64,000 bases of DNA from Nitzschia sp. pyKryTriq1. Lineage: Eukaryota; Bacillariophyta; Bacillariophyceae; Bacillariales; Bacillariaceae. This document shows, piece after piece, positions 8,167 through 54,551 of the stretch (within the stretch, counting starts at the first letter, position 1; each line of letters begins with the position of its first letter). The stretch is from the NCBI GenBank assembly GCA_956465555.1, contig OY101117.1:1798001-1862000 (forward strand), read 5' to 3'. Both the position numbers and the translations under genes were made by a program. The notes beneath the pieces were generated by a model that did no database searches, was not told where the DNA came from, and saw only the letters and a program-made list of their open reading frames with translations.

Positions 8167-8999
8167 TAGAGAGATTAACCACCAAGCAAACATGAAGAGA
8201 AAACGGTAGAAGAACTGTAGGAAGAATTGATTTGAAGTCCTCCAAACTCCAGACGAGCCTTCCTTGTCCATCCCTCGGGACACCATCCGCAGTGGAGGGT
8301 GGGTGCCGCCACCCACCTTCCCATCAATGCGTTGTTCGGCTGTTGCAGTTGGTGCTCCGGAGTAGGTTGGAACGGGGCTGCTCTCCGTGTCTTGGTTCGC
8401 TCTCCGTCTGTTCGTCCTCGGTGTGGGGGAAACCCCCCCTCTTTCTCAAGTCTCGCTACTAAGATTATTTCCTCCACTACCGTAGTAACTTACGTCATGT
8501 ACGGTCTGTACGTCATATACCATCTGGACAATTGTCCAAATAACTTCTGAGATATAAAAGAAACGTCTATGGAAACAATGCAGTTCCTGTGATTCGTGAA
8601 ATCGCGGTGAATTTACTAGTAATGTGGTACTATTTTAGTTTTTATGGCTCTGTCGTAGGATTTGTACATGTGGATTCTAACAACGGATTTGGGAAATGAG
8701 AAAAGGGCCTGTACTCGTACCAGTACAGTACATACGGACTTGTACCCGGTACATTCCAACAACGCGGAGAGACACGACGAGGCGATCGACCGACGACGTG
8801 GCTCCGCCTCCTCGCTTTGGCAACATGACCCTCTCTCCATGCATGAGGGGAGAGGTCGTACGATACTGTACGTACTCGTACAGTACTGTACCGGGACCGT
8901 ACCTGGTACAGCACAGTACAGGTACCGGTACCAGGTACAGTAAAAGTACGAGTACATCCTGTAATCCTGTCCCTCTCTTCCATCAAAGTTTGATGCTGA
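8167..8999. promoter_or_regulatory. Intergenic region with very dense GTAC cluster
   Basis: No gene was seen. The part at 8709-8957 is one of the densest GTAC/GGTACC/ACCGGT clusters in the window and ends about 45 bp before the next gene's start codon. Frames through it translate into Thr/Tyr/Val/Arg-rich nonsense on both strands. The segment 8176-8480 has overlapping short open frames without recognisable motifs. Confidence 0.5.
8709..8957. repeat. GTAC cluster upstream of EEP-fold gene
   Basis: Words of the GTACTGTAC, GGTACC and ACCGGTACC type, with the last one about 45 bp before the ATG at 9000. One of the three longest clusters in the window. Confidence 0.8.
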
Positions 9000-14215: not shown

Positions 14216-14818
14216 GTTATTTGGTTGTGCTCTACGGTACATACCAGTACTGGTACCGCCCCGGTACAGTACCGGTAAGGTTCCACATTACTCGCGCGCG
14301 AGACATGCGATCAGGCTGTGATGAGGTTGTCAAGAAGGATTGGTATTTAGCGCTTCTTCTAACAAGACCCCTTCACCGAAATTCGAGTTATTTTGCAAAA
14401 CAACAGACTTCCCTTTTAACGTTAAACACTGAACAACGGCACAGCTGGCAGCATGAAACGTCTGTCAGGCTTGGTCAGGTTGACTATGGTTGACACTGGT
14501 TGACACCGGCCCATCCTGATCTGATGGATCGCAGATGCATCATCATCATCATACGTCCCGGTACAGGTACAGGTACTGTACCTGGTACAAGTGCTTGTAC
14601 AGTACCAGTACTTGTACGAGTACCGTACTTGTACCGTACGGTCGTTATCATCTGTGAGATGATTGATTGGTGATGGATCTTCGATGGATCTCATTTCTGA
14701 TCGGCGATCGGCGACAAGAGATTGCCTACTCGTACCATAGAGTGCCACATCGTTGCTCAAATACAAAAATTATCCGTCACTGTCAGTGCAAGGGGAAACA
14801 AGTTACCGCCCCTACAAA

Positions 14819-18472: not shown

Positions 18473-20364
18473 GTCTACGAAGAATCGAGCGAACCTGAAA
18501 TCAGCGAGTACTGCAGATGATGGGTGTTTAGAACTAAAAACTAAAAAATGACAGGGCGATCATCAAGCTAATTTTGCATTCTGAGCACCACTCAACCGAT
18601 CGAATCCTCATCACCGAGTTTCCTGCCGTACTGCGTACCAGTACTCGTCACCATTGTCGTACCTGAAAGAATCAACCTCAATGAACCTTAGAAAATGGTA
18701 ATATTGATAGCAATGATGAATCATCAAGTTATGCTGGAAAGCGAAGTCCGCTGTTTGGAAACAGAACAAATATCGACTCCAATGCGCCGTGTCAGGCAGG
18801 CCATCAAGACCGATGACTCATTCTGGGGCGGGCGCGCCATCATACTGTAGCAATGCTGGACTTCGGCGAAAATTCTGTTCGACAGATCTCTGATTGATGT
18901 AATCTCTCCCCCGCCGCACCTGGAGGATAGAGGATGGTGATGCTGACCAACGATTGGTTCGTGCAGATTGTCGACGTATCAGGGGCAGATTATTGCCTCG
19001 GGAAGAACATTCGATCCGGTTCTTGCTGCTGTCAGAGAGTTGCCAAGTTCTGCGAATTCTGGTGCCAAAGGAGCACAGCTGCCAATATTTGATCGAGAAG
19101 TTCGACTGATACGAGCAAACTAAGTTGAAGATATCTCGGCTGGGGCCAAACTGTGGATACCGGTATGCAATGATGCCGCGCATTCTTCCCGAGTAAATAA
19201 GTGTGATGATGAATGATGATGATGATTCTTCTCGTAATCAACACCAACACCCAACGCTCCGGTCCAACGAAGGGAGAATGCTGTGTTCCTTTTGAGAGGA
19301 ACTGAATCGGCAGCAGCTGCTGTCGTACTCCGAGTGCCAGGTACAAGTACGATTATAGCCACCAGCAACTCTTGGCCTCAGAGGCATGCAAGGATGGTCA
19401 CGGTGTAAACGGCGACAGGTAGAGTACGAGTACTCGAATTCCCGACAAGAAAATCCATCTTGAATTCCGCTTCAATCATGAGATTGCAACCTCTCAGAAA
19501 TTTGCATTTCGTCAAAGATGTGGTCGGTGCACCCCGCCGGGAAATCGCTGTGCGCTGATGAATGATCATCGTCGTGTACCAGGTACCGCTACCAGTTACT
19601 GGTAGTCTACTGTACGAGTGAGTGTATCGTATGTTGTGTTTTCGACAACGAAAATTTATGGGGACACCCTCGGTCCGCTGTGTGGGCGTTTTGGGCCGAG
19701 CCGTGAAATAATGGAAAAGAACAGATGATTGAGAAACTTATGCGCTGGCGCGCAAGATGGTCTGTCCGTTTTCCTGTGAGATGAACGAGAGGGCGCGGCG
19801 GGGGGGGGAGGGGCCCGAGGGCGGTGTGTGCCAGGTCTACCCGGTACTACCGGTACGTACGGTACAAGTACCAGGTCTCTACACGGTTCGGTACTGTACA
19901 TACCTGTACGTGGTACTACTGACCGCACACAGTACAGTACCCTCGTACACCGCAACACACAACGCGAGGGGAGCGTACTGGTACAGTAGTAACAGTACTA
20001 CTGTACCAGTACGGCTGTACCAGTACGGCTGTACCGGTACGGTTCGAGTAAATGAATACCCGAGACTACTACTCCTACACCCAGGTCTCTCTACTACCTG
20101 TTCTACAAGTAGTACCGGTAGTACTGGTACTGTACTGTAGAGAGAGCAGACTGCGGACACACCTGGTACAGGTACCTGGTACCGGTATCATTCGTCATCA
20201 TCATTCACCGTCATCAATCAATCCCAATCATCATCAACCAACAATATCTTGAAGGGCTTCTGTGCATCTATACGAGTACCGGTAACAGCGAGCAGTGTGT
20301 CCGCACTACTGGCAAATACCGCCATAACATCAGCTGGCGCCGTATTTAGACTGCGAATCTCAGA
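18473..20364. promoter_or_regulatory. Divergent intergenic region with large GTAC cluster
   Basis: No convincing gene in 1.9 kb. It separates the divergent methyltransferase and PsbP-like genes. GTAC clusters lie at about 18631-18663, 19574-19617 and, the longest in the window, 19846-20172, where almost every 10-bp word contains GTAC, GGTACC or TACTGTA. A GATGAT run occurs near 19205-19230. Short open frames here have no motifs and several translate only the repeat. Confidence 0.5.
19846..20172. repeat. Largest GTAC/GGTACC/TACCGGTA cluster
   Basis: About 330 bp dominated by the self-complementary words GTAC, GGTACC, ACCGGT, TACTGTAC and CAGTACTG. It ends about 190 bp upstream of the PsbP-like start. 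It is too irregular to be a simple satellite; it looks like a family of related decamers built on TAC/GTA steps. Confidence 0.8.
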
Positions 20365-30900: not shown

Positions 30901-33900
30901 AAGAATAATTGCGCGCATGCGCCGTTCTGCTGCCCATTTTGACATCGAGCCAAGTTCCAGAAGACGACTCGTGCGGATCAATCGCATTGGCAGAACATGA
31001 CCCTACGCCATTGATGGAAGAACCACTCGCTTCGTAAGCGTTGCCATTCAAAAGTCTCGGAGGTCCTTCGTTTTCCTCTGCCGTCTTGACAACCACGATA
31101 GTCGAGCCGCAGTCCGGCTGAGAAAGTGGTTTGGTATTCGTTCGCGTAATACGCTGTTGGGTTCCCACATATCGTCCTCTACCCAACCTGGCTTCGTACT
31201 GGTACTGGTACCCTTTCATCTGGAACTCTGGGCGTGCTTTCTGGAAACACCCCTCTTGAAAAGAAGCAGTGGTCTTCTCCTCACCTCTTGCAGGCAGTCT
31301 GTTGTCTTCGTCTGATAAAATCGGAGAGAAGTATCCAGCTGGTGAAGAGGTGGCCACCTGCGAAGAAAAGTGGAGAATATCGCCCTTTTCCGATGGAAAA
31401 ACGTTCCCTTCTTCGAAGTAGTTTGAATTTTTCACGTTGGGGGATGCACTGGCTCTTGGGAGTTTTGTAAGTAAATGGTGTACTCTGCGAAGGCTTGCCT
31501 TGTCAACCTTGATCTGGGACCGGGATCCGGCCGTTTGAAAAGTGGCCACCTGACGAGATACAGCAATGCTCGTATCCACGACCGTCGACACCACCTCTTT
31601 CCCCTCATGGGCATTCAAAGTCTCGCCACTCTGTAGCTGCGTCGCGTCAGTATTGCCCCTGTCACACTCCTCTAGCAGATGGCGGGCTCTCCGCAAGCTA
31701 GGTTCCTCCACTCGGATCTGCGATCCTGATCCGGCGGTCTGAAACGAGGCCCTAGGGAAGGGAAGTGTAGTCCTGCCTGTGCCCGTTTCTTCAGTCGAGC
31801 TCACCGAGACACTGTTCTCGCGTCTTACAGCGCCGATTCTTTCCCGTTGCTGAAAGATATCCTCTGCTCTACGAAGGCTCGCCTTGTCAACCTTGATCTG
31901 GGACCGGGATCCGGCCGTTTGAAAAGTGGCCACCTGACGAGATACAGCAATGCTCGTATCCACGACCGTCGACACCACCTCTTTCCCCTCGTGGGCATTC
32001 AAAGTCTCGCCACTCTGTCGCTGCGTCGCGTCAGTATTGCCCCTGTCACACTCCTCTAGCAGATGGCGGGCTCTCCGCAAGCTAGGTTCCTCCACTCGGA
32101 TCTGCGATCCTGATCCGGCGGTCTGAAACGAGGCCCTAGGGAAGGGAAGTGTAGTCCTGCCTGTGCCCGTTTCTTCAGTCGAGCTCACCGAGACACTGTT
32201 CTCGCGTCTTACAGCGTCGATTCTTTCCCGTTGCTGAAAGATATCCTCTGCTCTACGAAGGCTCGCCTTGTCAACCTTGATCTGAGACCGGGATCCGGCC
32301 GTTTGAAAAGTGGCCACCTGACGAGATACAGCAATGCTCGTATCCACGACCGTCGACACCACCTCTTTCCCCTCGTGGGCATTCAAAGTCTCGTCACTCT
32401 GTAGCTGGTCGATGCTGTGCATGCTAGCTTCGTATCCCTCAATAGGCGGGCTGGACTTGATGCCTACAAAAGAAACTCGCCGTTTGTTGAGTGTTCTAGA
32501 TACATCTTCTCCATCTGTCGCATCGGAGAATTCGAAAGGAAGAATGCAATCACTTTCAACACTTTTAGCCGACTTTGTTGTCCTCCCCACTATGTTCGTA
32601 TTGTTGCTGCGTTGCGGTGCAGTGACACATCCGAAAGGCTTCGGGCTTACTTCGACGTAGACATTGCCACCTTGACGAAGAAGGTGCCGTGGTCGATTAA
32701 TAGGAATTTCCTCGATTTCCATGCTAGATCCAGCGGTTCCAGATATGGGCATCGGTTTGTTGTTTTGCGTTGGTTTTCCGGCATCCTTCGTCGACTCCTT
32801 TACGAGACCAGTTACAGCGATATTGTTAACATTGCTCCAGTGAGGTCGTTCTTTAGCTTTAAGCAAACAAGCGTCCCCAAATTCACTTTGCGATTTACAT
32901 CCATCACTTTTGAATGCGACTGTTGCAATTGAAAGATGATTCAGCACCCCTCGAGATTCAAGGTTCTCCTCTCGCCCCTCGTTGCATCCTTGCCCAACCG
33001 TTTTCGCGGTGCCCCCAACCAAGGACGGGGCTTCAACAAATGCTCTGGCGGCGGATTGTTGGAGAAGCCGAGCCGGACTTTGCATGCGGTCTTCCTCTAC
33101 CTGAATTTTTGGGTTGGATCCTGCGGTCTGAAATGCGACTTGAGGGAGCAAGTGCTCGTCACCTATATTACCACAGTTGGTGACAGTCATACCTTGCATT
33201 TGCCCTCCTTCTGAAATGTCGTGGTCGGTCTCTTCGCTTTCGGATTGCTTCAAAACGCTAGTAGCCGTGACAAGCAATGCTGCGTCGCTAACTTGTAGTG
33301 GGCTTGTCCCTACAGATTGAAAGAATGCCGATGCCATATTTTCACTTGGACTCCCTTTCGGGCTTTCCACTTCAGTGCTTGCGTGTGAGGTGTTTTCTTG
33401 AGGCGTTTGTAAGCGTGGACGGGGAGACGAGTGTACTTTGTGAAATACTGAGCCAGGCATTTTGTTTGGAGGAGCCTCGGTGTTGGTAGCAGCAGCAGCA
33501 ACCGTCATTTTGCCCGGAATGCCAGGTTCCTCTTGGCTAGGAGGAGTATAGCGAAACGATAAGGATTCCTGAGACGGCGGCGAGAGATCATGGCTGACAC
33601 CGAAAAAAGCTGGCGATGATTTGGATGGGACAGAAAGTCCTTGTGGTGTGCATGAGCCTTGCTCTTCCGTTTCTGCATGTTCGAGACTGAGCAGCTGAGG
33701 CGACTCCTCGGGATTTGGAACTCTGTCGACCGAGCTTGGCGTCATCACCTTTGCTCCTAGTGGAGAAGACTCCTTACGGAGGATCTCTAGCAAGGGGGGC
33801 GCCTCGTCTAGTGACGAATTTTGAGAAGTTTCAATCGTCTGCATCGAGCCTCGATCTGGATCGATGAGCGCCACCAGGCCCTTGGGCTGTTTTCTACTAC

Positions 33901-39590: not shown

Positions 39591-40580
39591 TCAATCCCAT
39601 TTTGCCACGTATGACAAGTCGAGCATCATCCATCCAACACCAATCCAGCAGATCAATATGGTTATCCACATTACCATGTCATAGTCCTCATCCCGCCCTG
39701 CTGCTACCAGTATGCGCGTTGGAGGTCCTCTTTCTTCCAGTCCTTGGAATAGCAAGGAACCATCTTTTTTCCTGCAAAGCAGCTGAGGTTCCGGAAGAAT
39801 TACATATTGCTGATAGCTACGAGAAGGATATGGGTATCGCAAATGCAGCTTACTCGAAATCTCAATATTAGAGCTGCCGTCGACCAACACCTCCAAGACA
39901 ATAATATGCTGTCCACTACTAAAAGCAGGCTGCTCAATGTCGCAAACGCTTGCAGCGTGGACGCGTACGAATACATCAACAGGTCCTTGAAACGCATCGT
40001 CAAGGTCAACAAACATGGAGTTCGGGATCGTCAAAAAGACGAAGCTGCCCTGGACATCGGCTGGTGTATGCAACTGGTGGTATAAGAGACGGTGCATGCC
40101 GCCGGAAACAGATAGATCCGAATCGATGGAAACATAATCCGATGGTTCCGACGCTTGCAGGAGGAAGGGGGATGAAGTCGTCTCGAGCTGTTGGAGGACT
40201 GTATACTCAAGACTGGCATCCCATAGAAATTGGCCGACTTGCAGCACGCTGCTGTTGGTTGGCTCTGTGGGGAGCGTCAGGGAATACACCGCAACGTTCC
40301 GTCTTTCCAATTTCAAAGCGTCCAAAAGTGAGCCTGGCACAGCTGCTAGCTGTGAATTACACTGTCCAACTTCAGGTGACAGAATAGCGAGTTCCTGGCT
40401 TGCGCTGATAATATGGTGACAACAGTTCTCCGAGGTCTCCACTTCAAAGCAAGCCCACTGCACGTCAAAAGTTGTCCTCGTCACAAGTACCTTTTGGGCT
40501 CGAGACACCAAGAGGGACAGACTGAAAACAGTCACGAGCAGTCGCCACTGGGTGAGCTCCATCTGGCACAGGATCTTCAT
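39591..40580 (-). CDS. PIGX: PIG-X/PBN1 subunit of GPI mannosyltransferase I
   Basis: A single-exon ORF of 329 aa starting at the first ATG (MKILCQMELTQW). A signal peptide (LLVTVFSLSLLVSRAQ) and a C-terminal membrane helix (MVMWITILICWIGVGWMML) make it a type I ER protein. The lumenal part carries the PIG-X pattern: HRLLYHQL, later CDIEQPAF, then LHLRYPYPSRSYQQYVIL with PEPQLLC, matching the LRY-x-x-P...Y...L-P-x-P block of PIG-X/Pbn1. The subunit stabilises the catalytic PIG-M in adding the first mannose to GPI-anchor precursors on the lumenal ER face. PIG-M is not in this window. A GTAC cluster lies about 185-385 bp upstream of the start. Confidence 0.82.
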   Translation of the reverse strand: MKILCQMELTQWRLLVTVFSLSLLVSRAQKVLVTRTTFDVQWACFEVETSENCCHHIISASQELAILSPEVGQCNSQLAAVPGSLLDALKLERRNVAVYSLTLPTEPTNSSVLQVGQFLWDASLEYTVLQQLETTSSPFLLQASEPSDYVSIDSDLSVSGGMHRLLYHQLHTPADVQGSFVFLTIPNSMFVDLDDAFQGPVDVFVRVHAASVCDIEQPAFSSGQHIIVLEVLVDGSSNIEISSKLHLRYPYPSRSYQQYVILPEPQLLCRKKDGSLLFQGLEERGPPTRILVAAGRDEDYDMVMWITILICWIGVGWMMLDLSYVAKWD

Positions 40581-40966: not shown

Positions 40967-41109
40967 ATTTCATCGTCTGGGCGGTTGACATGCAATGCTG
41001 CTGGTACGCAGACGAGAAATTTAGATAGAGTATTTTACGCAGACGACTTTATTGGACATACAATTAATCAGACTCGTTGCGCAGACGAGATTTTTAGCTG
41101 CCTGCCTTG

Positions 41110-42129
41110 ATGCTTCCTATAGTGCCAAAGTGGTTAGCGAATATCAATGGCGAGAACATGTTTTCGGCACTGATTACCGCGATAAACGAGTACGGCGAAT
41201 CCTTGGCATCGTATTTGGTGCGGGCTGGACCCATGTACTCCTGCGCGGTTCTAAGGAATCACCACCACCGGAAGAGCTGGCGCGCTTCGGTGGCCAATCG
41301 GCCAGGATTCCCGCAAAATATAAACCACTATGACTGTCTGTTGGTGGATTCCGTCAATTGCCTCCACGAAGAAGTCTTCCGGCGTCCCAAGTACAACGGA
41401 TGGCCGGACTACAACGAGGCGGTAGCCGTGAAGCGGTCCCCATTCGGGATCATCCCGTTGATTGAGGACTGCGGTAGACAAAGAGCAAAAGCGTGTGAGT
41501 TTCTGCCACCTCAATTACGATTTCTGGCAACATGCATGGCGTCGGACATACCATACACTCCCGTTGCAACAAAGGAGGAACGGGGCCTTTTCAAAAAGAT
41601 GCTACTACAGGAAACAATCGGAAGCGGACACCCAGTAAACCGAGATACATTTCACAATCTTACTATGGAATGGAACCTACAGCATGTTGAGCTGCCCAAT
41701 TCGAAGCAGGAAAAGGTGAGAATCTTTCCAAAATATACATTACACATGCTAAACCACTATAAAAAGTGGCGACTTACTAATAAGACAATGTCGGCCATCA
41801 CCGAGGCCAACGAGAGCCCGGTCGTAAGGGCTTTGAAACACAACAAGGGAATCCGGGTCGCACAAGGAACCTACACCTTGCACGGATTGGGCACCACCAC
41901 CGCCCACAAGCCAGCAGACCCACCGCTATCTCCAGTAATGATGCCGACACCTCCACCCCCACCAGTAATGATGCCTCCGCCTCCGCCCCCCCCGCCGCCT
42001 CCTCTTCTGCCTCCACCAGTAATGATGATGCGGATGATGCCACCTCCCAAACGACGGAAAATGGTTTGCCAGAAATGTTTGAATGGGGCCTGCAAGCGGC
42101 CATTCAACAAATCTGGTAAGTGCGTGTGA
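41110..42129 (+). CDS. Unknown protein of tandem element, copy 1
   Basis: A 339-aa ORF from the first ATG (MLPIVPKWLANINGENMFSA). I do not recognise the family. The N-terminal two thirds look globular, with GFPQNINHYDCLLVDSVN, a basic/aromatic stretch, WNLQHVELPNSKQEKVRIFP and TLHMLNHYKKWRLTN. The C-terminal third has MMPPPPPP-type proline runs alternating with PVMM, then KRRKMVCQKCLNGACKRPF with a C-x2-C-x4-C-x9-C arrangement that could bind zinc and nucleic acid. No DDE/D, tyrosine-recombinase RHR-Y or HUH motif is obvious. It is the only long ORF in the unit, so it is the best candidate for the mobility protein. An overlapping frame at 41052-41333 is shorter and less protein-like. Upstream exons within the left end cannot be excluded. 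Confidence 0.6.
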   Translation: MLPIVPKWLANINGENMFSALITAINEYGESLASYLVRAGPMYSCAVLRNHHHRKSWRASVANRPGFPQNINHYDCLLVDSVNCLHEEVFRRPKYNGWPDYNEAVAVKRSPFGIIPLIEDCGRQRAKACEFLPPQLRFLATCMASDIPYTPVATKEERGLFKKMLLQETIGSGHPVNRDTFHNLTMEWNLQHVELPNSKQEKVRIFPKYTLHMLNHYKKWRLTNKTMSAITEANESPVVRALKHNKGIRVAQGTYTLHGLGTTTAHKPADPPLSPVMMPTPPPPPVMMPPPPPPPPPPLLPPPVMMMRMMPPPKRRKMVCQKCLNGACKRPFNKSGKCV

Positions 42130-42540
42130 TATTGTAAGAAATAATGTCTATTACTAGCGCTATGGCGTGATATTGTATGAAACAAATGTCTATTACTAGC
42201 GCTATCGCGTGATATTGTATGAAATAATGTCCATTACTAGCGCTATCGTGTGATATTGTATGAAATAATGTCTATTACTAGCGCTATCGCGTGATATTGT
42301 ATGAAATAATGTCTATTACTAGCGCTATCGCGTGATATTGTATGAAATAATGTCCATTACTAGCGCTATCGCGTGATATTGTATGAAATAATGTCTATTA
42401 CTAGCGCTATCGCGTGATATTGTATGAAATAATGTCTATTACTAGCGCTATCGCGTGATATTGTATGAAATAATGTCTATTACTAGCGCTATCGCGTGAT
42501 ATTGTATGAAATAATGTCTATTACTAGCGCTATCGCGTGA
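42126..42540. repeat. 41-bp tandem repeat array, copy 1
   Basis: Ten head-to-tail copies of a 41-bp unit containing GTGATATTGTATGAAATAAT and CTATTACTAGCGCTATCGC start at 42126, 42167, 42209, 42250 and so on. The third start is shifted by one base through a one-base insertion. The array begins at the ORF stop codon. There are no unique spacers, so this is not a CRISPR. Confidence 0.92.
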
Positions 42541-42855
42541 AATAATGGCAAAAAATAAATTTCCGCGCGTGCTATCGCGTGAAAGATTTCATTTTCGAGT
42601 GGTGCTATCGCGAAAAATGGGCGTCGCCGGCAAGAATTTCAATAGGTTATGAGCCTACATATTTTTTTTCCGCGCTCACGCGCGGAAATCAAGTTGCCGT
42701 CCAGCAGCACGGAATTTTCGCCCTGGGCGGTTGACATGCAATGCTGCTGGTACGCAGACGAGAAATTTAGATAGAGTATTTTACGCAGACGACTTTATTG
42801 GACATACAATTAATCAGACTCGTTGCGCAGACGAGATTTTTAGCTGCCTGCCTTG

Positions 42856-43875
42856 ATGCTTCCTATAGTGCCAAAGTGGTTAGCGAATATCAATGGCGAG
42901 AACATGTTTTCGGCACTGATTACCGCGATAAACGAGTACGGCGAATCCTTGGCATCGTATTTGGTGCGGGCTGGACCCATGTACTCCTGCGCGGTTCTAA
43001 GGAATCACCACCACCGGAAGAGCTGGCGCGCTTCGGTGGCCAATCGGCCAGGATTCCCGCAAAATATAAACCACTATGACTGTCTGTTGGTGGATTCCGT
43101 CAATTGCCTCCACGAAGAAGTCTTCCGGCGTCCCAAGTACAACGGATGGCCGGACTACAACGAGGCGGTAGCCGTGAAGCGGTCCCCATTCGGGATCATC
43201 CCGTTGATTGAGGACTGCGGTAGACAAAGAGCAAAAGCGTGTGAGTTTCTGCCACCTCAATTACGATTTCTGGCAACATGCATGGCGTCGGACATACCAT
43301 ACACTCCCGTTGCAACAAAGGAGGAACGGGGCCTTTTCAAAAAGATGCTACTACAGGAAACAATCGGAAGCGGACACCCAGTAAACCGAGATACATTTCA
43401 CAATCTTACTATGGAATGGAACCTACAGCATGTTGAGCTGCCCAATTCGAAGCAGGAAAAGGTGAGAATCTTTCCAAAATATACATTACACATGCTAAAC
43501 CACTATAAAAAGTGGCGACTTACTAATAAGACAATGTCGGCCATCACCGAGGCCAACGAGAGCCCGGTCGTAAGGGCTTTGAAACACAACAAGGGAATCC
43601 GGGTCGCACAAGGAACCTACACCTTGCACGGATTGGGCACCACCACCGCCCACAAGCCAGCAGACCCACCGCTATCTCCAGTAATGATGCCGACACCTCC
43701 ACCCCCACCAGTAATGATGCCTCCGCCTCCGCCCCCCCCGCCGCCTCCTCTTCTGCCTCCACCAGTAATGATGATGCGGATGATGCCACCTCCCAAACGA
43801 CGGAAAATGGTTTGCCAGAAATGTTTGAATGGGGCCTGCAAGCGGCCATTCAACAAATCTGGTAAGTGCGTGTGA
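42856..43875 (+). CDS. Unknown protein of tandem element, copy 2
   Basis: A 339-aa ORF identical to the one 1,746 bp upstream (first ATG 42856; C-terminal Pro-rich linker and C-x2-C-x4-C-x9-C tail). The open frame is preserved in both copies, but because the copies are identical this shows recency rather than selection. All comments on the first copy apply. Only reads spanning both units can show whether both copies exist in the genome. Confidence 0.55.
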   Translation: MLPIVPKWLANINGENMFSALITAINEYGESLASYLVRAGPMYSCAVLRNHHHRKSWRASVANRPGFPQNINHYDCLLVDSVNCLHEEVFRRPKYNGWPDYNEAVAVKRSPFGIIPLIEDCGRQRAKACEFLPPQLRFLATCMASDIPYTPVATKEERGLFKKMLLQETIGSGHPVNRDTFHNLTMEWNLQHVELPNSKQEKVRIFPKYTLHMLNHYKKWRLTNKTMSAITEANESPVVRALKHNKGIRVAQGTYTLHGLGTTTAHKPADPPLSPVMMPTPPPPPVMMPPPPPPPPPPLLPPPVMMMRMMPPPKRRKMVCQKCLNGACKRPFNKSGKCV

Positions 43876-44286
43876 TATTGTAAGAAATAATGTCTATTAC
43901 TAGCGCTATGGCGTGATATTGTATGAAACAAATGTCTATTACTAGCGCTATCGCGTGATATTGTATGAAATAATGTCCATTACTAGCGCTATCGTGTGAT
44001 ATTGTATGAAATAATGTCTATTACTAGCGCTATCGCGTGATATTGTATGAAATAATGTCTATTACTAGCGCTATCGCGTGATATTGTATGAAATAATGTC
44101 CATTACTAGCGCTATCGCGTGATATTGTATGAAATAATGTCTATTACTAGCGCTATCGCGTGATATTGTATGAAATAATGTCTATTACTAGCGCTATCGC
44201 GTGATATTGTATGAAATAATGTCTATTACTAGCGCTATCGCGTGATATTGTATGAAATAATGTCTATTACTAGCGCTATCGCGTGA
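43872..44286. repeat. 41-bp tandem repeat array, copy 2
   Basis: It has the same number and order of 41-bp units, including the same variant units (ATGAAACAAATG and TGTCCATT), as the array 1,746 bp upstream. Satellites normally change copy number quickly, so identity here points to a very recent duplication or to an assembly duplicate. Confidence 0.92.
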
Positions 44287-44476
44287 AATAATGGCAAAAA
44301 ATAAATTTCCGCGCGTGCTATCGCGTGAAAGATTTCATTTTCGAGTGGTGCTATCGCGAAAAATGGGCGTCGCCGGCAAGAATTTCAATAGGTTATGAGC
44401 CTACATATTTTTTTTCCGCGCTCACGCGCGGAAATCAAGTTGCCGTCCAGCAGCACGGAATTTTCGCCGTCTGGGC

Positions 44477-44736: not shown

Positions 44737-46968
44737 ATGCCGAAGCCATCTCAGAAGATTTCTCGCGGAATGTCTGTCCAGGAAGAAATCGCTGCGTTGA
44801 AAGCTCGTATCGACACCGAAAGCCCCGCACAGGGCACCATTCCTCACGGCAAGAATTCCGTTGTGGCATTCGGATCGCTCCCACTCTCGCAATCTACGCT
44901 ACGGGGGCTAGAATCAAATGCGTACACTTCAATGACTTCAATCCAGTCAGGGAGCATTCCTCATGCTTTGGCGGGTAGAGATATTCTCGCGGCGGCAAAG
45001 ACTGGCAGCGGCAAAACATTGAGCTTCTTGGTTCCAGTTTTGGAGTCTTTGTTTCGACAGGGATGGTCGATGCACGACGGGGTTGGGGCTATTGTATTGT
45101 CGCCGACCAGAGAATTGGCTGGACAAATATTTGCAGTACTAAAGAAGATCGGCTGCTCCCACAATTTTTCTGCCGGCTTGCTAATTGGTGGCCGCAACAA
45201 AAATCGAAGAGCAGAACAGAACAATGACTTCCAACGAGAACAGCAATCCATTGCAACGACCAACATTTTGGTGTGTACACCTGGTCGTCTTTTGCAACAC
45301 TTGGAACAGACCCCTTATTTCAATGTCGATTCTTTGCAAATCCTCGTGTTGGACGAAGCTGACCGTATCCTGGATATGGGGTTTCGAGATCAGTTGGTGC
45401 GAATCCTTGATTATCTTCCGACTCAAAGACAGACACTTTTGTTCTCGGCAACGCAAACAAAGGATGTGAAACACTTGGCCACGTTGAGTATCAATCGCAA
45501 AACGGTCGAATATGTGGGGGTTCACGATCAGGACGAGGTAGCCACACCAGACCAGCTGAAGCAGAGTTACGTGGTTGTACCCGTCGAGCACAAACTTAAT
45601 TGCGTATATTCATTTCTCAAAACTCATCTGAAATGCAAAACCATTGTGTTTATGGCCAGCTGCTCCCAAGTGCGCCATGCATGGGACCTTTTTTGTCGAT
45701 TGCGACCTGGCCTAAGCGTCTTGGCCATGCACGGAAAGCTGTCACAAACAAAACGGATGCAAGTATACGACAAATTTTCCAACACGCCTCACTCTGTGAT
45801 GTTTTCGACTGATGTTGCAAGTCGGGGGCTTGATTTTCCTGACGTTGATTGGGTCCTTCAAGTAGATGCCCCCGAGGATCCTGATGGATATATCCATAGG
45901 GTGGGAAGAACCGCCCGGTTTAGAAAACAGGGACAGGCCCTCATGTTGCTGGATCCTGCAGAAGAAGTTTGTGTCAAAAGCTGGGAAACCAAAACTCCGA
46001 TTCAAAAGAAGAGTATCAATCCAACAAAAACTGTACTGGTAACTCAGCGAGCTGCTTCTTTGGTGGTAGAACACAGTTCGCTCCACAAGTTGGCAAAGAA
46101 AGCATTTGTCAGCTACACCCGTTCTCTGGCCTTACTACCAAGACAACCATGGGGTAAACTAAATTTTCGGGAGATGAATCTAGAAGGCTACGCTATTAGT
46201 TTGGGCTTGTCGAGCATGCCCCCGCTCGACTTCTTGGACAAGGTGACCAATCGAGAAGATAAACGTGAAACGAAGAATGTAAATCGCAAACTGCAAAAGC
46301 TCAAAGAACAGATCCGACTTGAAAAAGAAAAGAAGCGAAATAAGCGTTTGCTGCAGGACACAGTAACAGAGGAGAACTGTGATTCAGAAGACGACGACTT
46401 GCTAGTCGTCAAGGCGCGACATGAATATGAACTGTCAGATGATGTCATAGATGGGAATGGGTTTGCAGAAGAGACTGTTCGACACCCCAAGAAAATTCGC
46501 GTTGAAAGCCGTAAATCTATCAAGTTTGGTGATGATGGAATGAAGGAAGCTAAGTTACTATCTTCAAAGATGAACAAGGAAAGCGGTGACCAAGACGACG
46601 AAGCGGTTGACACCGAAGGAATTGTGAACGCAAGCAACGTTTACATGGAGAAAGTGCGCCAGAGACTTGAGCAAACGAAACAATTGGACAAGGAGGAAGA
46701 AAGAGAACGTATTCGCGCTAAGCATAAGCAGAGGCGCTTGAAAGAAAAGGCAGAAAGGGGGGAGGAGCAAGCTCGAGCAGAGCCCAAAGCCGTTTTGCAA
46801 TCTGCACAACACTCAGACGATGAGGAAGAATCATCAAGTTCGCCTGAAGATGATTCCTCAGCGGGATCATCGTCGTCCGAATCTATTTTTGAAGGCAACA
46901 GTGGAAAATTGGACTTAACTGCTCGGGAAGATATTGCTTTGGCGTTGATCCGGGGTCGGTCTATGTAG
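44737..46968 (+). CDS. DDX10: DEAD-box RNA helicase DDX10/Dbp4
   Basis: A single-exon ORF of 743 aa. The conserved core shows the Q-motif region (FGSLPLSQSTLRGLESNAYT), motif I AKTGSGKT at residues 87-94, PTRELAGQ, TPGRLLQH, the DEAD box LDEADRILDMGF, SAT in LLFSATQ, and motifs V/VI STDVASRGLDFP and HRVGRTAR. The DDX10/Dbp4 assignment rests on the LPLS..T..GL entry, the HGKLSQTKRM block and the long charged C-terminal extension. Dbp4 acts in the nucleolus, releasing U14 snoRNA during early 18S rRNA processing. The C-terminal 250 residues are Lys/Glu-rich with coiled-coil character and a Ser/Asp/Glu-rich patch (SDDEEESSSSPEDDSSAGSS), typical of nucleolar proteins. Start: first ATG after the 5' GTAC cluster. 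Confidence 0.92.
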   Translation: MPKPSQKISRGMSVQEEIAALKARIDTESPAQGTIPHGKNSVVAFGSLPLSQSTLRGLESNAYTSMTSIQSGSIPHALAGRDILAAAKTGSGKTLSFLVPVLESLFRQGWSMHDGVGAIVLSPTRELAGQIFAVLKKIGCSHNFSAGLLIGGRNKNRRAEQNNDFQREQQSIATTNILVCTPGRLLQHLEQTPYFNVDSLQILVLDEADRILDMGFRDQLVRILDYLPTQRQTLLFSATQTKDVKHLATLSINRKTVEYVGVHDQDEVATPDQLKQSYVVVPVEHKLNCVYSFLKTHLKCKTIVFMASCSQVRHAWDLFCRLRPGLSVLAMHGKLSQTKRMQVYDKFSNTPHSVMFSTDVASRGLDFPDVDWVLQVDAPEDPDGYIHRVGRTARFRKQGQALMLLDPAEEVCVKSWETKTPIQKKSINPTKTVLVTQRAASLVVEHSSLHKLAKKAFVSYTRSLALLPRQPWGKLNFREMNLEGYAISLGLSSMPPLDFLDKVTNREDKRETKNVNRKLQKLKEQIRLEKEKKRNKRLLQDTVTEENCDSEDDDLLVVKARHEYELSDDVIDGNGFAEETVRHPKKIRVESRKSIKFGDDGMKEAKLLSSKMNKESGDQDDEAVDTEGIVNASNVYMEKVRQRLEQTKQLDKEEERERIRAKHKQRRLKEKAERGEEQARAEPKAVLQSAQHSDDEEESSSSPEDDSSAGSSSSESIFEGNSGKLDLTAREDIALALIRGRSM

Positions 46969-50000: not shown

Positions 50001-53000
50001 TCAATCTTCCACGTTTGCCAACTCCGATTCCACACCACCGTCTTCCGAATCACCGGCTCTTCCTTCGTGGCCTTCCTCGTCAACTTCAGAGTCTGCGCCT
50101 TCGGATGCCTGGTCGTCTATCTGGGATTCTTCTACGTGGACTTGACCAGAATCTTCAGCGCTTGCCTCCTCCGACTCGACACCACTGTCTTCCGACTCAA
50201 CGACTGATCCTTCGTGGCCTTCCTCGTTAACTAGGGCGTCTTCTTTTGCAGATTCTTGATCATCTGTTTTGGATTCTGCTGCGTCGACTTCGTCGGGATC
50301 CTCCACGCTTGCTTCCTCCGATTCCACACCACTCTCTTTCGCCTCCGTGGCTTCAGACTCTTCTCTTGCGCTTTCGGATTCCTGGTCGTGTATTTGGGAT
50401 TCTTCTGCGTCCTCTTCGTCGGAGCCGTCCACGCTTGCTTCCGCCGGTTCCACAACACTGCCTTCTGACTCAACGACTGATCCATCGTGAACCTCTTCGT
50501 CAACTTCAGACTCTTCTTTTGCGGTTTCGGATTCCTGGTCGTGTATTTGGGATTCTTCTGCGTCCTCTTCGTCGGGATCCTCCGCGCTTGCTTCCACCGA
50601 TTCCACAACACTGCATTCTGACTCAACGACTGATCCATCGTGAACCTCCTCGTCAACTTCAGACTCTTCTCTTGCGCTTTCGGATTCCTGGTCGTGTATT
50701 TGGGATTCTTCTGCGTCCTCTTCGTCGGGATCCTCCGCGCTTGCTTCCGCCGATTCCACAACACTGCCTTCTGACTCAACGACTGATCCATCGTGAACCT
50801 CCTCGTCAACTGGGGTGTCTTCTTTTGCGCTTTCGGATTCCTGGTCGTCTATTTGGAATTCTTCTGCGTCCACTTCGTCGGAACCCTCCGCGCTTGCTTC
50901 CGCCGGTTCCACACCACTCTCTTTCGCCTCCATGGCTACCCCGTCGTGGCCTTCCTCGTCAACTTCAGACTCTTCTTTTGCGGGTTCGGATTCCTGGTCG
51001 TCTATTTGGGATTCTTCTGCGTCCACTTCGTCGGAACCCTCCGCGCTTGCTTCCGCCGGTTCCACACCACTCTCTTTCGCCTCCATGGCTACCCCGTCGT
51101 GGCCTTCCTCGTCAACTTCAGACTCTTCTTTTGCGGGTTCGGATTCCTGGTCGTCTATTTGGGATTCTTCTGCGTCCACTTCGTCGGAACCCTCCGCGCT
51201 TGCTTCCGCCGGTTCCACACCACTCTCTTTCGCCTCCATGGCTACCCCGTCGTGGCCTTCCTCGTCAACTTCAGACTCTTCTTTTGCGGGTTCGGATTCC
51301 TGGTCGTCTATTTGGGATTCTTCTGCGTCCACTTCGTCGGAACCCTCCGCGCTTGCTTCCGCCGGTTCCACACCACTCTCTTTCGCCTCCATGGCTACCC
51401 CGTCGTGGCCTTCCTCGTCAACTTCAGACTCTTCTTTTGCGGGTTCGGATTCCTGGTCGTCTATTTGGGATTCTTCTGCGTCCACTTCGTCGGAACCCTC
51501 CGCGCTTGCTTCCGCCGGTTCCACACCACTCTCTTTCGCCTCCATGGCTACCCCGTCGTGGCCTTCCTCGTCAACTTCAGACTCTTCTTTTGCGGGTTCG
51601 GATTCCTCGTCGTCTATTTGGGATTCTTCTGCGTCCTCTTCGTCGGGATCCTCCGCGCTTGCTTCCGCCGATTCCACAACACTGCCTTCTGACTCAACGA
51701 CTGATCCATCGTGAACCTCCTCGTCAACTTCAGACTCTTCTCTTGCGCTTTCGGATTCCTGGTCGTCTATTTGGGATTCTTCTGCGTCCACTTCGTCGGA
51801 ACCCTCCGCGCTTGCTTCCGCCGGTTCCACACCACTCTCTTTCGCCTCCATGGCTACCCCGTCGTGGCCTTCCTCGTCAACTTCAGACTCTTCTTTTGCG
51901 GGTTCGGATTCCTGGTCGTCTATTTGGGATTCTTCTGCGTCCACTTCGTCGGAACCCTCCGCGCTTGCTTCCGCCGGTTCCACACCACTCTCTTTCGCCT
52001 CCATGGCTACCCCGTCGTGGCCTTCCTCGTCAACTTCAGACTCTTCTTTTGCGGGTTCGGATTCCTCGTCGTCTATTTGGGATTCTTCTGCGTCCTCTTC
52101 GTCGGGATCCTCCGCGCTTGCTTCCGCCGATTCCACAACACTGCCTTCTGACTCAACGACTGATCCATCGTGAACCTCCTCGTCAACTTCAGACTCTTCT
52201 CTTGCGCTTTCGGGTTCCTGGTCGTGTATTTGGGATTCTTCTGCGTCCTCTTCGTCGGAATCCTCCGCGCTTGCTTCCGCCCATTCCACACCTCTGTCTT
52301 CGGACTCAACGACTGATCCTTTGTGGCCTTCCCCGTCCGACTCAACGACTGATCCTTCGTGGCCTTCCTCGTGAACTGAAGCGTCCTCTTTTGCGACTTT
52401 AGATTCCTGGACATCTATTTTGGATTCTTTTGCGTCCTCTAGGTCAGGATCTTCGGCGCCTGGTCCCTCTGAATCCACACCTCTGTCCTCCGACTCACCG
52501 ACTGATCCATCGTGAACCTCCTCGTCAACTTCAGACTCGTCTTCTTCGCTTTCGGATTCTTGGTCATCGTTTCCGGATACTTCTGCGTTCGCGCCGACCG
52601 AAGCATCCCCGCTTGCCACTTCCGATTCCGCGCCATCATCCTCTGGCTCAGTAGTTGCTCCGGCGTGGCCATCATCCTCAGCTGCCCCTTCTTCATCCTT
52701 GTCGCTTTTAGATTCATGGTCATCTATTTTGGATACTTCTGCGTCCTTTTCGACTGAATCATCTACCTCTGCGAACTCCGGTTCCACACCACCGGTTGCT
52801 CCGTCGTGGCCTTCCTCGTCGCCTGGGGCGTCTCCTTTTGCGCCTTCAGATTCTGGCTCGTCGTTTTTGGATGTTTTTGCATCCGCACCAACCGAATTTC
52901 CCACGCTTGCCACTTCCAATTTGGCACTGGCGATCCCATTGTTTGCAACCTGACCATGTTCGGCATTTTCATTCAAACGACCCGTGGAGAAATCATAACC

Positions 53001-54551
53001 AGTCAAGTTGTACTCGACAACAGGAGGTTGTCCTTCTCCGTCGGAGACATCACCCTCCTTAGCGGCAGAAGAATCGTCGTCTGACATTCGAGCAATGACG
53101 GCATATTCCGAATTGTTACGAGGTGGTCTCGATTTAGATGTACGAGTACAGTCGCTTGCTTTGGTTTTACCTTTAGTCGTGACGTGTTTTGACAGTTCTT
53201 CGATAATGGAATTTTTCTGGTAAAGCTGTTCTTTTAGGATTGCAATTTCATCGTCCTTTTGTTTCAGAGCAAGCACAAGCTCATCAATTCTCATGCGGGA
53301 TCGGTCCCCGTCAGTGATGCCTTGATCATCAAGTTCTTGTATCGACTCCTTCGGCTGAGTTTCCTCGGCGATTCGTTTTTCGTTGTTCGACCCCTTGGAC
53401 TTTTTCACCTTCCGGTCACCACTTGGACGCTTTTTCTTCTTCTTTTTCTGGCCATCACCATCGCCATCGCCATCGCTGTCTGCCTTTGCCTTTTTCTTCT
53501 TTGGTTTCTTCTTTGATTCGCTCTTTTCTTTTTTCTTCTTCGACTTCTCTTCTAGGACGTCCAACTTGTGCACCGCGTCCAACATCTCTCGAGACTTATA
53601 AGCGTTGAAGGAAGTTCGTACCCGGCTCACCATCTCTGGTACTTCTAGTTCCACTTCACTGCTTTCGTCTGGTGAAGAGATGACAAATTCTTGTAGTTCC
53701 TCTCTTGTGGACTCGTCAAAATTCCCAAGTTGAGCTTTTAGCGACTTGGCTGGATCCAAGTCTAAAACGAAAGGATTTATGCCATCCGTTTCGCATGCAC
53801 TCTTTGCCGCCTCTACAGGAACACCCATAGCAATCATCTTGAAGTATCGAGCGAAAACTGGATGCGACTGTAGTTGATTTTCGTCTCGCCATGCAGCAAC
53901 TTGAGTTACTCTCGCCGTCACCAGTGCCTCCCATTCTTCTTCGGAGATAGCAAGCTCTGCTACAAGTGCTTCGTCGTCCGACGAAATATTATCAAACTCG
54001 AGAGCTTGTTTGCTCGACCCAAACATAATCTTAGTCCTCTTTCTCCAATCTGCACGGTTCGCTTGCAATTGTTTGACTTGCCCAATCACACCTGCCATAC
54101 TCTTGCGTTGCCTCGGCGCTTCGCCAACCACCTGTGATTCAGAATCACATATTCGACAGAGATGGACCTCCTCAAAAGTCTGAGCAAGAGTCGTAACTCG
54201 TTGATTCGGATGGCGCAAACACATACCATCTCCGTCCATTCCAAGGGCCTTGCACATGAACAAATCTTCTCGTGAGAGTTTCTTCCTTTCATCCCTCTCT
54301 TTCCGCAGTGCTTCTGCTCTCGCAATCCGCTCGGCCTTCGTTTCTGCTAGTCCACCAGCGCTTTTCTTTGAAGTTTTCTTCTTCTTCTTCTTCTGACTCG
54401 CTTTCTTCTCTTCTTCGAATTTTGGTTCTTCTTGCCCGTCGCCAACAGCTTTATCGCGTTGATGATCATCGCTGCCAGGCTTCGGTCTTGCTACCCTCGC
54501 AATTCCAAGTGTATTAAAAGTTTTCTTGACGAAAGACCATTTCCCCGACAT
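50001..54551 (-). CDS. Large acidic repeat protein with CCDC53-like motif
   Basis: A single-exon ORF of 1,516 aa. The N-terminal 330 residues are more globular: a basic Lys-rich start, a C-x2-H-P...C-x2-C cluster at about 112-134 (MCLRHPNQ, LCRICDSE), and at about 230-270 PVFARYFKMIAMGVPVEAA followed by DGINPFVLDLDP, which matches the short motif seen in the WASH-complex subunit CCDC53/WASHC3 and repeated in many diatom proteins. A Lys-rich segment (about 350-400) and a coiled coil (ALKQKDDEIAILKEQLYQ) follow. From about residue 560 to the end the protein is Glu/Asp/Ser repeats built on a 51-aa unit. The function may be cytoskeletal or scaffold, inferred only from the motif. The 3' two thirds are homogenised tandem repeats. 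Confidence 0.7.
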   Translation of the reverse strand: MSGKWSFVKKTFNTLGIARVARPKPGSDDHQRDKAVGDGQEEPKFEEEKKASQKKKKKKTSKKSAGGLAETKAERIARAEALRKERDERKKLSREDLFMCKALGMDGDGMCLRHPNQRVTTLAQTFEEVHLCRICDSESQVVGEAPRQRKSMAGVIGQVKQLQANRADWRKRTKIMFGSSKQALEFDNISSDDEALVAELAISEEEWEALVTARVTQVAAWRDENQLQSHPVFARYFKMIAMGVPVEAAKSACETDGINPFVLDLDPAKSLKAQLGNFDESTREELQEFVISSPDESSEVELEVPEMVSRVRTSFNAYKSREMLDAVHKLDVLEEKSKKKKEKSESKKKPKKKKAKADSDGDGDGDGQKKKKKKRPSGDRKVKKSKGSNNEKRIAEETQPKESIQELDDQGITDGDRSRMRIDELVLALKQKDDEIAILKEQLYQKNSIIEELSKHVTTKGKTKASDCTRTSKSRPPRNNSEYAVIARMSDDDSSAAKEGDVSDGEGQPPVVEYNLTGYDFSTGRLNENAEHGQVANNGIASAKLEVASVGNSVGADAKTSKNDEPESEGAKGDAPGDEEGHDGATGGVEPEFAEVDDSVEKDAEVSKIDDHESKSDKDEEGAAEDDGHAGATTEPEDDGAESEVASGDASVGANAEVSGNDDQESESEEDESEVDEEVHDGSVGESEDRGVDSEGPGAEDPDLEDAKESKIDVQESKVAKEDASVHEEGHEGSVVESDGEGHKGSVVESEDRGVEWAEASAEDSDEEDAEESQIHDQEPESAREESEVDEEVHDGSVVESEGSVVESAEASAEDPDEEDAEESQIDDEESEPAKEESEVDEEGHDGVAMEAKESGVEPAEASAEGSDEVDAEESQIDDQESEPAKEESEVDEEGHDGVAMEAKESGVEPAEASAEGSDEVDAEESQIDDQESESAREESEVDEEVHDGSVVESEGSVVESAEASAEDPDEEDAEESQIDDEESEPAKEESEVDEEGHDGVAMEAKESGVEPAEASAEGSDEVDAEESQIDDQESEPAKEESEVDEEGHDGVAMEAKESGVEPAEASAEGSDEVDAEESQIDDQESEPAKEESEVDEEGHDGVAMEAKESGVEPAEASAEGSDEVDAEESQIDDQESEPAKEESEVDEEGHDGVAMEAKESGVEPAEASAEGSDEVDAEESQIDDQESEPAKEESEVDEEGHDGVAMEAKESGVEPAEASAEGSDEVDAEEFQIDDQESESAKEDTPVDEEVHDGSVVESEGSVVESAEASAEDPDEEDAEESQIHDQESESAREESEVDEEVHDGSVVESECSVVESVEASAEDPDEEDAEESQIHDQESETAKEESEVDEEVHDGSVVESEGSVVEPAEASVDGSDEEDAEESQIHDQESESAREESEATEAKESGVESEEASVEDPDEVDAAESKTDDQESAKEDALVNEEGHEGSVVESEDSGVESEEASAEDSGQVHVEESQIDDQASEGADSEVDEEGHEGRAGDSEDGGVESELANVED
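50840..52260 (-). repeat. 153-bp (51-aa) in-frame tandem repeats
   Basis: The word CATGGCTACC recurs at 50931, 51084, 51237, 51390 and 51543 at exact 153-bp steps, and again near 51849 and 52002. Units are close to identical. Because the unit length is divisible by 3 and the code is GA-rich, frames on the complementary strand also stay open for up to about 2.1 kb. These antisense frames are by-products. Confidence 0.93.

Follow-up and report, generated by a model that had tools for sequence, protein, structure and literature searches.

Insertion sequences of the bacterial IS256 family reportedly form tandem dimers. For one member of the family, ISCth4, the published account (PMC7780238) describes end-to-end junctions with spacers of 6-8 bp that are taken from the flank; of the eight junctions recovered, five linked the right end to sequence flanking the left end; junction mimics with a 6-bp spacer gave the best integration, and 8-bp duplications were present in all five sequenced insertions. 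Tandem dimers of IS30 have joined ends at a 2-bp spacing (PMC9333248), and among eukaryotic elements the Mutator-like elements (MULEs) are reported to occur in circular form (PMC3942029), while the excision footprints of KolobokP were likened by its authors to the copy-out transposition of IS3 and IS256 (PMC9587614). Given the Mutator-like circles and the copy-out-like footprints of KolobokP, copy-out in a eukaryote would have some precedent, and its use has been suggested for the Mutator superfamily (PMC3942029). Here we describe a locus in a 64,000-nucleotide stretch of the diatom Nitzschia sp. pyKryTriq1 (contig OY101117.1, positions 1,798,001 to 1,862,000; this whole stretch is termed the window), where two identical copies of a 1,740-bp unit, a candidate small DNA transposon, stand head to tail. 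A copy-out route would be expected to leave a trace of this sort in the DNA: a chromosomal dimer whose outer duplication is 8 bp and whose 6-bp joint derives from the flank.

Positions 40977-42722 and 42723-44468 of the window form a maximal exact repeat of 1,746 bp at an offset of 1,746, with zero mismatches, and within it copy 1 (40983-42722) and copy 2 (42729-44468) of the unit, both on the + strand, are fully identical over 1,740 bp each; there are zero Ns across the window. The pair is bordered on either side by the octamer GTCTGGGC (40975-40982 and 44469-44476), which we presume to be an 8-bp target-site duplication and which, at this single site, is present at both outer edges. Between the units lies the 6-bp joint CTGGGC (42723-42728), which is identical to the final six bases of GTCTGGGC. 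Copy 1 is joined by its right end, without shared bases, to the position 6 bp beyond the left end of copy 2, and the right-hand breakpoint of the joint falls exactly on the final base of the unit as this is set by the outer octamer. GTCTGGGC occurs at two other sites in the window, 16743 (-) and 47920 (+), about as many as we estimate for chance, and the flank evidence therefore weighs through its exact position at both ends and not through rarity. The outer flanks agree at a ninth base too (C at 40974 and 44468), and a 9-bp duplication, CGTCTGGGC, was considered and rejected, since it fits the outer flanks but the joint, which would then be CCTGGGC, does not correspond to the end of the 9-mer.

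A preliminary description of this DNA had reported two units identical at an offset of 1,746, internal satellite included, between matching outer octamers, and had proposed a very recent amplification. The exact repeat in fact extends to 1,746 bp, the octamers are at the edges of the pair, and the zero differences over that whole length, minisatellite included, agree with a recent origin. Such perfect identity is also what would be expected of a false duplication, in which misjoined reads would have produced the second copy at a locus that really contains a single unit (or more than two). A simple overlap error should, however, leave the units either meeting directly or separated by the full 8-bp flank, not by a clean 6-bp joint at the exact end of the unit, and an assembly artefact of this kind seems to us distinctly unlikely.

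The unit begins with GG and finishes with CC (positions 40983 and 42722 in copy 1). When its two 22-base ends are compared as inverted repeats they match, imperfectly, at 15 of 22 positions, nine of which fall in the run TGCTGCTGG; 15 or more matches were seen in none of 20,000 shuffles of two 22-base ends. TGCTGCTGG is found only at 40996-41004 (+), at 42701-42709 (-) and at the corresponding positions of the second copy, and so stands inverted, 13 bp inside each end. Three subterminal copies of CGCAGACGA occupy the left end (starting at 41007, 41038 and 41080, together 41007-41088, + strand, and again 1,746 bp further on), and ten copies of GCTATCGCG per unit lie toward the right end, neither motif being present elsewhere in the window. 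A 41-bp minisatellite, most repeats of which carry GCTATCGCG, has 10.1 copies in each unit by tandem-repeat finding (42126-42540 and 43872-44286, both +); as the units do not differ, its variants are the same in both. We regard the subterminal repeats and this array as putative protein-binding sites. A GC-rich hairpin with a 9-bp stem is predicted near the right end (42667-42688, +; z-score -2.97), with 2 of 200 shuffles folding equally well. We note separately that in the region of the joint (42690-42760) the inverted end motifs come to lie approximately 33 bp apart, and that a hairpin is predicted over this region at -15.5 kcal/mol (z-score -2.05).

All of these motifs, CGCAGACGA on the left, GCTATCGCG on the right and the inverted TGCTGCTGG 13 bp in, are located where the preliminary description had placed them, and its proposal of a transposon plan is matched by the inverted-matching ends, the subterminal repeats, the 8-bp outer direct repeats and the site between two host genes. 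Judged by this layout the 1,740-bp unit appears to be a small DNA (terminal-inverted-repeat) transposon, to which we attach a probability of roughly 0.8, and it is probably non-autonomous.

The unit contains a 339-aa ORF (41110-42129 in copy 1 and, identically, 42856-43875 in copy 2, both +), in the translation of which a proline-rich stretch precedes a KRRK patch and a tail with four cysteines (C-x2-C-x4-C-x9-C). In 1,000 dinucleotide-preserving shuffles of the leading 1,147 bp of the unit no ORF reached 339 codons (the longest had 240), so the reading frame has probably been maintained. Codon usage was scored after training on eight window ORFs of at least 1,200 bases, the neighbouring helicase gene included; the PIG-X gene on the other side of the pair was outside the training set and scores -0.003 in frame. 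The in-frame score of the 339-aa ORF is -0.068; its two remaining forward frames score -0.217 and -0.027, and the reverse frames -0.168, -0.131 and -0.155. These values speak against a typical host gene and lend no support to translation. An ordinary duplicated host gene, non-mobile, could account for an ORF that has been kept open and for a window without dispersed copies, but not for octamers and inverted-matching ends at the exact edges of the unit, and both the codon usage, unlike that of the long window ORFs, and the want of a Pfam family for the ORF count against it; we consider this explanation very unlikely.

Relatives of the ORF were sought in viral contigs, prokaryotic genomes, phages and plasmids as well as in protein libraries. 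There were no matches to PHROGs, to phage records or to plasmid records; NCBIfam gave a single sub-cut-off match, to BimA (E 0.46, residues 250-313, mainly the proline-rich stretch), and the Protein Data Bank (PDB) gave four weak matches (E 3.2-9.4), all inside residues 270-318; the matches in both libraries are at the level of chance. Seventeen pattern matches in viral contigs, and 28 in prokaryotic genome contigs when residues 1-265 were used, included no relatives. The libraries searched with the ORF other than Pfam and PDB have little eukaryotic content, so a family known in algae may have escaped these searches. An alignment-free AlphaFold model of residues 1-265 is unusable (mean pLDDT 36.3, pTM 0.22). 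The end of the ORF (42110-42129) falls within GGTAAGTGCGTGTGA, which resembles a splice donor and lies on the margin of the 41-bp array. Continuation of the protein beyond an intron is conceivable, yet the unit has little coding room left.

The 6-bp joint is the feature that says most about how the tandem arose, and its shortening had been overlooked when the pair was put forward as a candidate mobile element, a proposal that holds as regards the DNA-transposon plan and recency. We suggest that the transposon inserted once in the spacer between the PIG-X and helicase genes, duplicating the 8 bp GTCTGGGC, and that the pair would then have formed on site through the action of a transposase. A cut exactly after the final base of one copy (on a sister chromatid, say, or on a circle) would have freed its right end, which would then have been joined to another copy at a point 6 bp beyond the left end, so that the product would consist of right end, 6-bp spacer and left end within the outer 8-bp duplication. 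Joining of this end-to-flank ('copy-out') type is performed by IS256-family elements, and it fits the observed string in that it needs neither a lost base nor a changed stagger. That a transposase made the pair, by whichever route, is in our judgement probable, while end-to-flank joining specifically, the route we prefer, is put forward tentatively and at rather less than even odds. A more far-reaching proposal would be that of a eukaryotic family with an unrecognised class of enzyme that moves by copy-out and paste-in, its own 339-aa protein, unrelated to known transposases, linking one end to sequence that flanks the other and leaving tandem dimers with 6-bp joints as chromosomal intermediates; this we regard as speculative and improbable. 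Should other copies in this host be without such joints, the pair would be an ordinary nested insertion of a small transposon.

A close rival to end-to-flank joining is plain re-insertion, by which a second cut-and-paste copy, using a 6-bp stagger, would have entered the left flank of the first to give GT-CTGGGC-U-CTGGGC-U-GTCTGGGC (where U is the unit), on the premise that the element prefers that target and that its own duplication keeps the target adjacent. This reproduces the observed string base for base, and zebrafish Dada-U1 has apparent 8-bp flanks and yet tandem copies that are 6 bp apart, from which spacing its authors propose a true 6-bp duplication (PMC3706591). Plain re-insertion does call for two insertions of one element at a single site with differing staggers (8 and 6 bp), and, should the true duplication instead be 6 bp with GT as the end of the unit, copy 1 must have lost its GT. 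Weighing these points we think re-insertion unlikely, though it stays near at hand.

Tandem duplications are common, and the pair could also be the work of host repair or replication (for example if the 8-bp repeats paired following a break), with an 8-bp joint that later lost GT; compared with the octamer, the joint does lack two bases at its edge. The flanking homology of a single unit is just 8-9 bp, however, the joint is direct and without shared bases, and its position at the exact right end and no more than 6 bp from the left end would have to be a coincidence, so that a host-made duplication is hard to favour and in our view has only a small chance of being correct.

The head-to-tail arrangement of a 1,746-bp repeat that includes the joint, with a hairpin near one end, might suggest a circle of 1,746 bp that integrated in dimeric form, derived from a Crypton-like recombinase element or a circular virus, or else a Helitron. 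Site-specific integration at CTGGGC predicts CTGGGC on the right side, not GTCTGGGC, and the Rep, recombinase and helicase families are all unmatched in Pfam, PHROGs and NCBIfam. Helitrons carry a CTRR right end and are not known to make a target duplication, whereas the right end of the unit is ...TTTTCGCC and 8-bp flanking repeats are present, and membership of this group was rejected on both counts. Integration of a circle or a Helitron accordingly has hardly any probability in our assessment.

Several points weigh against a transposon paired by end-to-flank joining. Its support comes from one locus. The terminal repeats are short as well as imperfect, the codon usage does not favour the frame of the 339-aa ORF, and a transposase is not recognised, a Pfam search with the ORF returning no families at E-values up to 10. 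Re-insertion with a 6-bp stagger yields the same string, and the Dada elements offer tandem copies at just this spacing (PMC3706591); a single locus does not separate end-to-flank joining, re-insertion and an 8-bp tandem that has lost GT.

When the unit was compared with the window, with the pair masked, only weak short matches were obtained (best blastn E-value 0.32, best tblastx E-value 0.11), and a 21-base core of the satellite had no match in viral contigs. The left-end pattern TGCTGCTGGNNCGCAGACGA was found at four loci of prokaryotic metagenome-assembled genomes and in one viral contig, but at these five loci the longest aligned piece of the unit is no more than 26 bases, and a tblastn search with the ORF (E-values up to 1) detected nothing there. 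In 257 billion bases an 18-base pattern should, by our estimate, turn up several times at random, and all five loci were therefore dropped as relatives. No description of this element was recognised in the portions of the open-licence literature returned by searching on its features, and the passages of PMC9674265 so retrieved held nothing useful on tandem insertions.

The pair sits in the spacer of two diverging genes, the PIG-X gene (39591-40580, -; Pfam PF08320, E-value 8.7e-11) and the DEAD-box helicase gene (44737-46968, +), and further ORFs of the window match BRCA2, rhodanese, DnaJ, CCDC53 and DUF6824 domains. These neighbouring genes by themselves identify the host as eukaryotic. At the empty site, reconstructed by joining the flanks through one octamer, no tRNA was detected; the flanks gave only matches far below the gathering scores when compared with microRNA (miRNA) models, and the window as a whole has no Rfam matches at gathering scores. 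Other repeats are evident in the window. A 384-bp tandem repeat (31483-32411; 2.4 copies, 98 % matches, 128 codons per unit) is located within a 1,597-aa minus-strand ORF that matches BRCA2 domains, and a 153-bp (51-codon) repeat of approximately 12.7 copies is present at 50351-52300, in a 1,516-aa minus-strand ORF (50001-54551) matching the WASH-complex subunit CCDC53. Short repeats rich in GTACC/GGTAC are found at 8871-8942, 14585-14639 and 19989-20042, and in both flanks of the pair.

Among eukaryotic DNA transposons, MULEs make duplications of 8-11 bp (PMC6446971), a range that includes the 8 bp seen here, and many carry short subterminal tandem repeats (PMC5225508). A diatom MULE group has terminal repeats of 123-124 bp and a SWIM zinc finger (PMC6446971), whereas the ends of the unit are approximately 22 bp, and no MULE transposase domain was among its Pfam results, although a non-autonomous member would be without such a domain. 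Merlin elements resemble the unit in having terminal GG and duplications of 8-9 bp, the unit having GG...CC ends and 8 bp, but differ in terminal repeats of 24-462 bp and in the DDE_Tnp_IS1595 transposase (PMC8101967), a domain for which the Pfam search of the ORF was likewise empty. KolobokP is a eukaryotic DNA transposon with tandem multimers (PMC9587614), although its neighbouring copies share long terminal direct repeats and its duplications are of 3-5 bp.

In addition to the apparent 8-bp flanks and the 6-bp spacing of tandem copies, Dada elements resemble the unit in subterminal inverted repeats of 7-9 bp in place of good terminal repeats and in C-terminal zinc-finger-like cysteines, and their hosts include Ectocarpus (PMC3706591). 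They differ in that they target small-RNA genes and that complete elements are 4,666-10,979 bp long with a DDE transposase (PMC3706591). Their duplications are of 6-7 bp, as compared with 8 bp outside and 6 bp at the joint in the present locus; the DDE transposase with its DxxH motif has no counterpart in the Pfam search of the ORF, and membership of Dada was rejected as no small-RNA gene was found at the site by the tRNA search, with only sub-threshold matches to the miRNA models. Since their transposases were not recognised, the terminal repeats are short and a small-RNA-gene target was not found, we do not file the unit under Mutator-like elements, Merlin or Dada, and we class it as a DNA transposon without an assigned superfamily.

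The IS256 family differs in being bacterial and in having a recognisable RNase H-like transposase, whereas here the transposase is unrecognised and the ends are imperfect. The likeness is one of mechanism, not of membership: IS256 elements combine 8-bp duplications with junctions in which the right end is followed by a flank-derived spacer of 6-8 bp and then by the left end (PMC7780238), and in the diatom locus the corresponding spacer, CTGGGC at 42723-42728, repeats the 6 bases with which the left flank ends.

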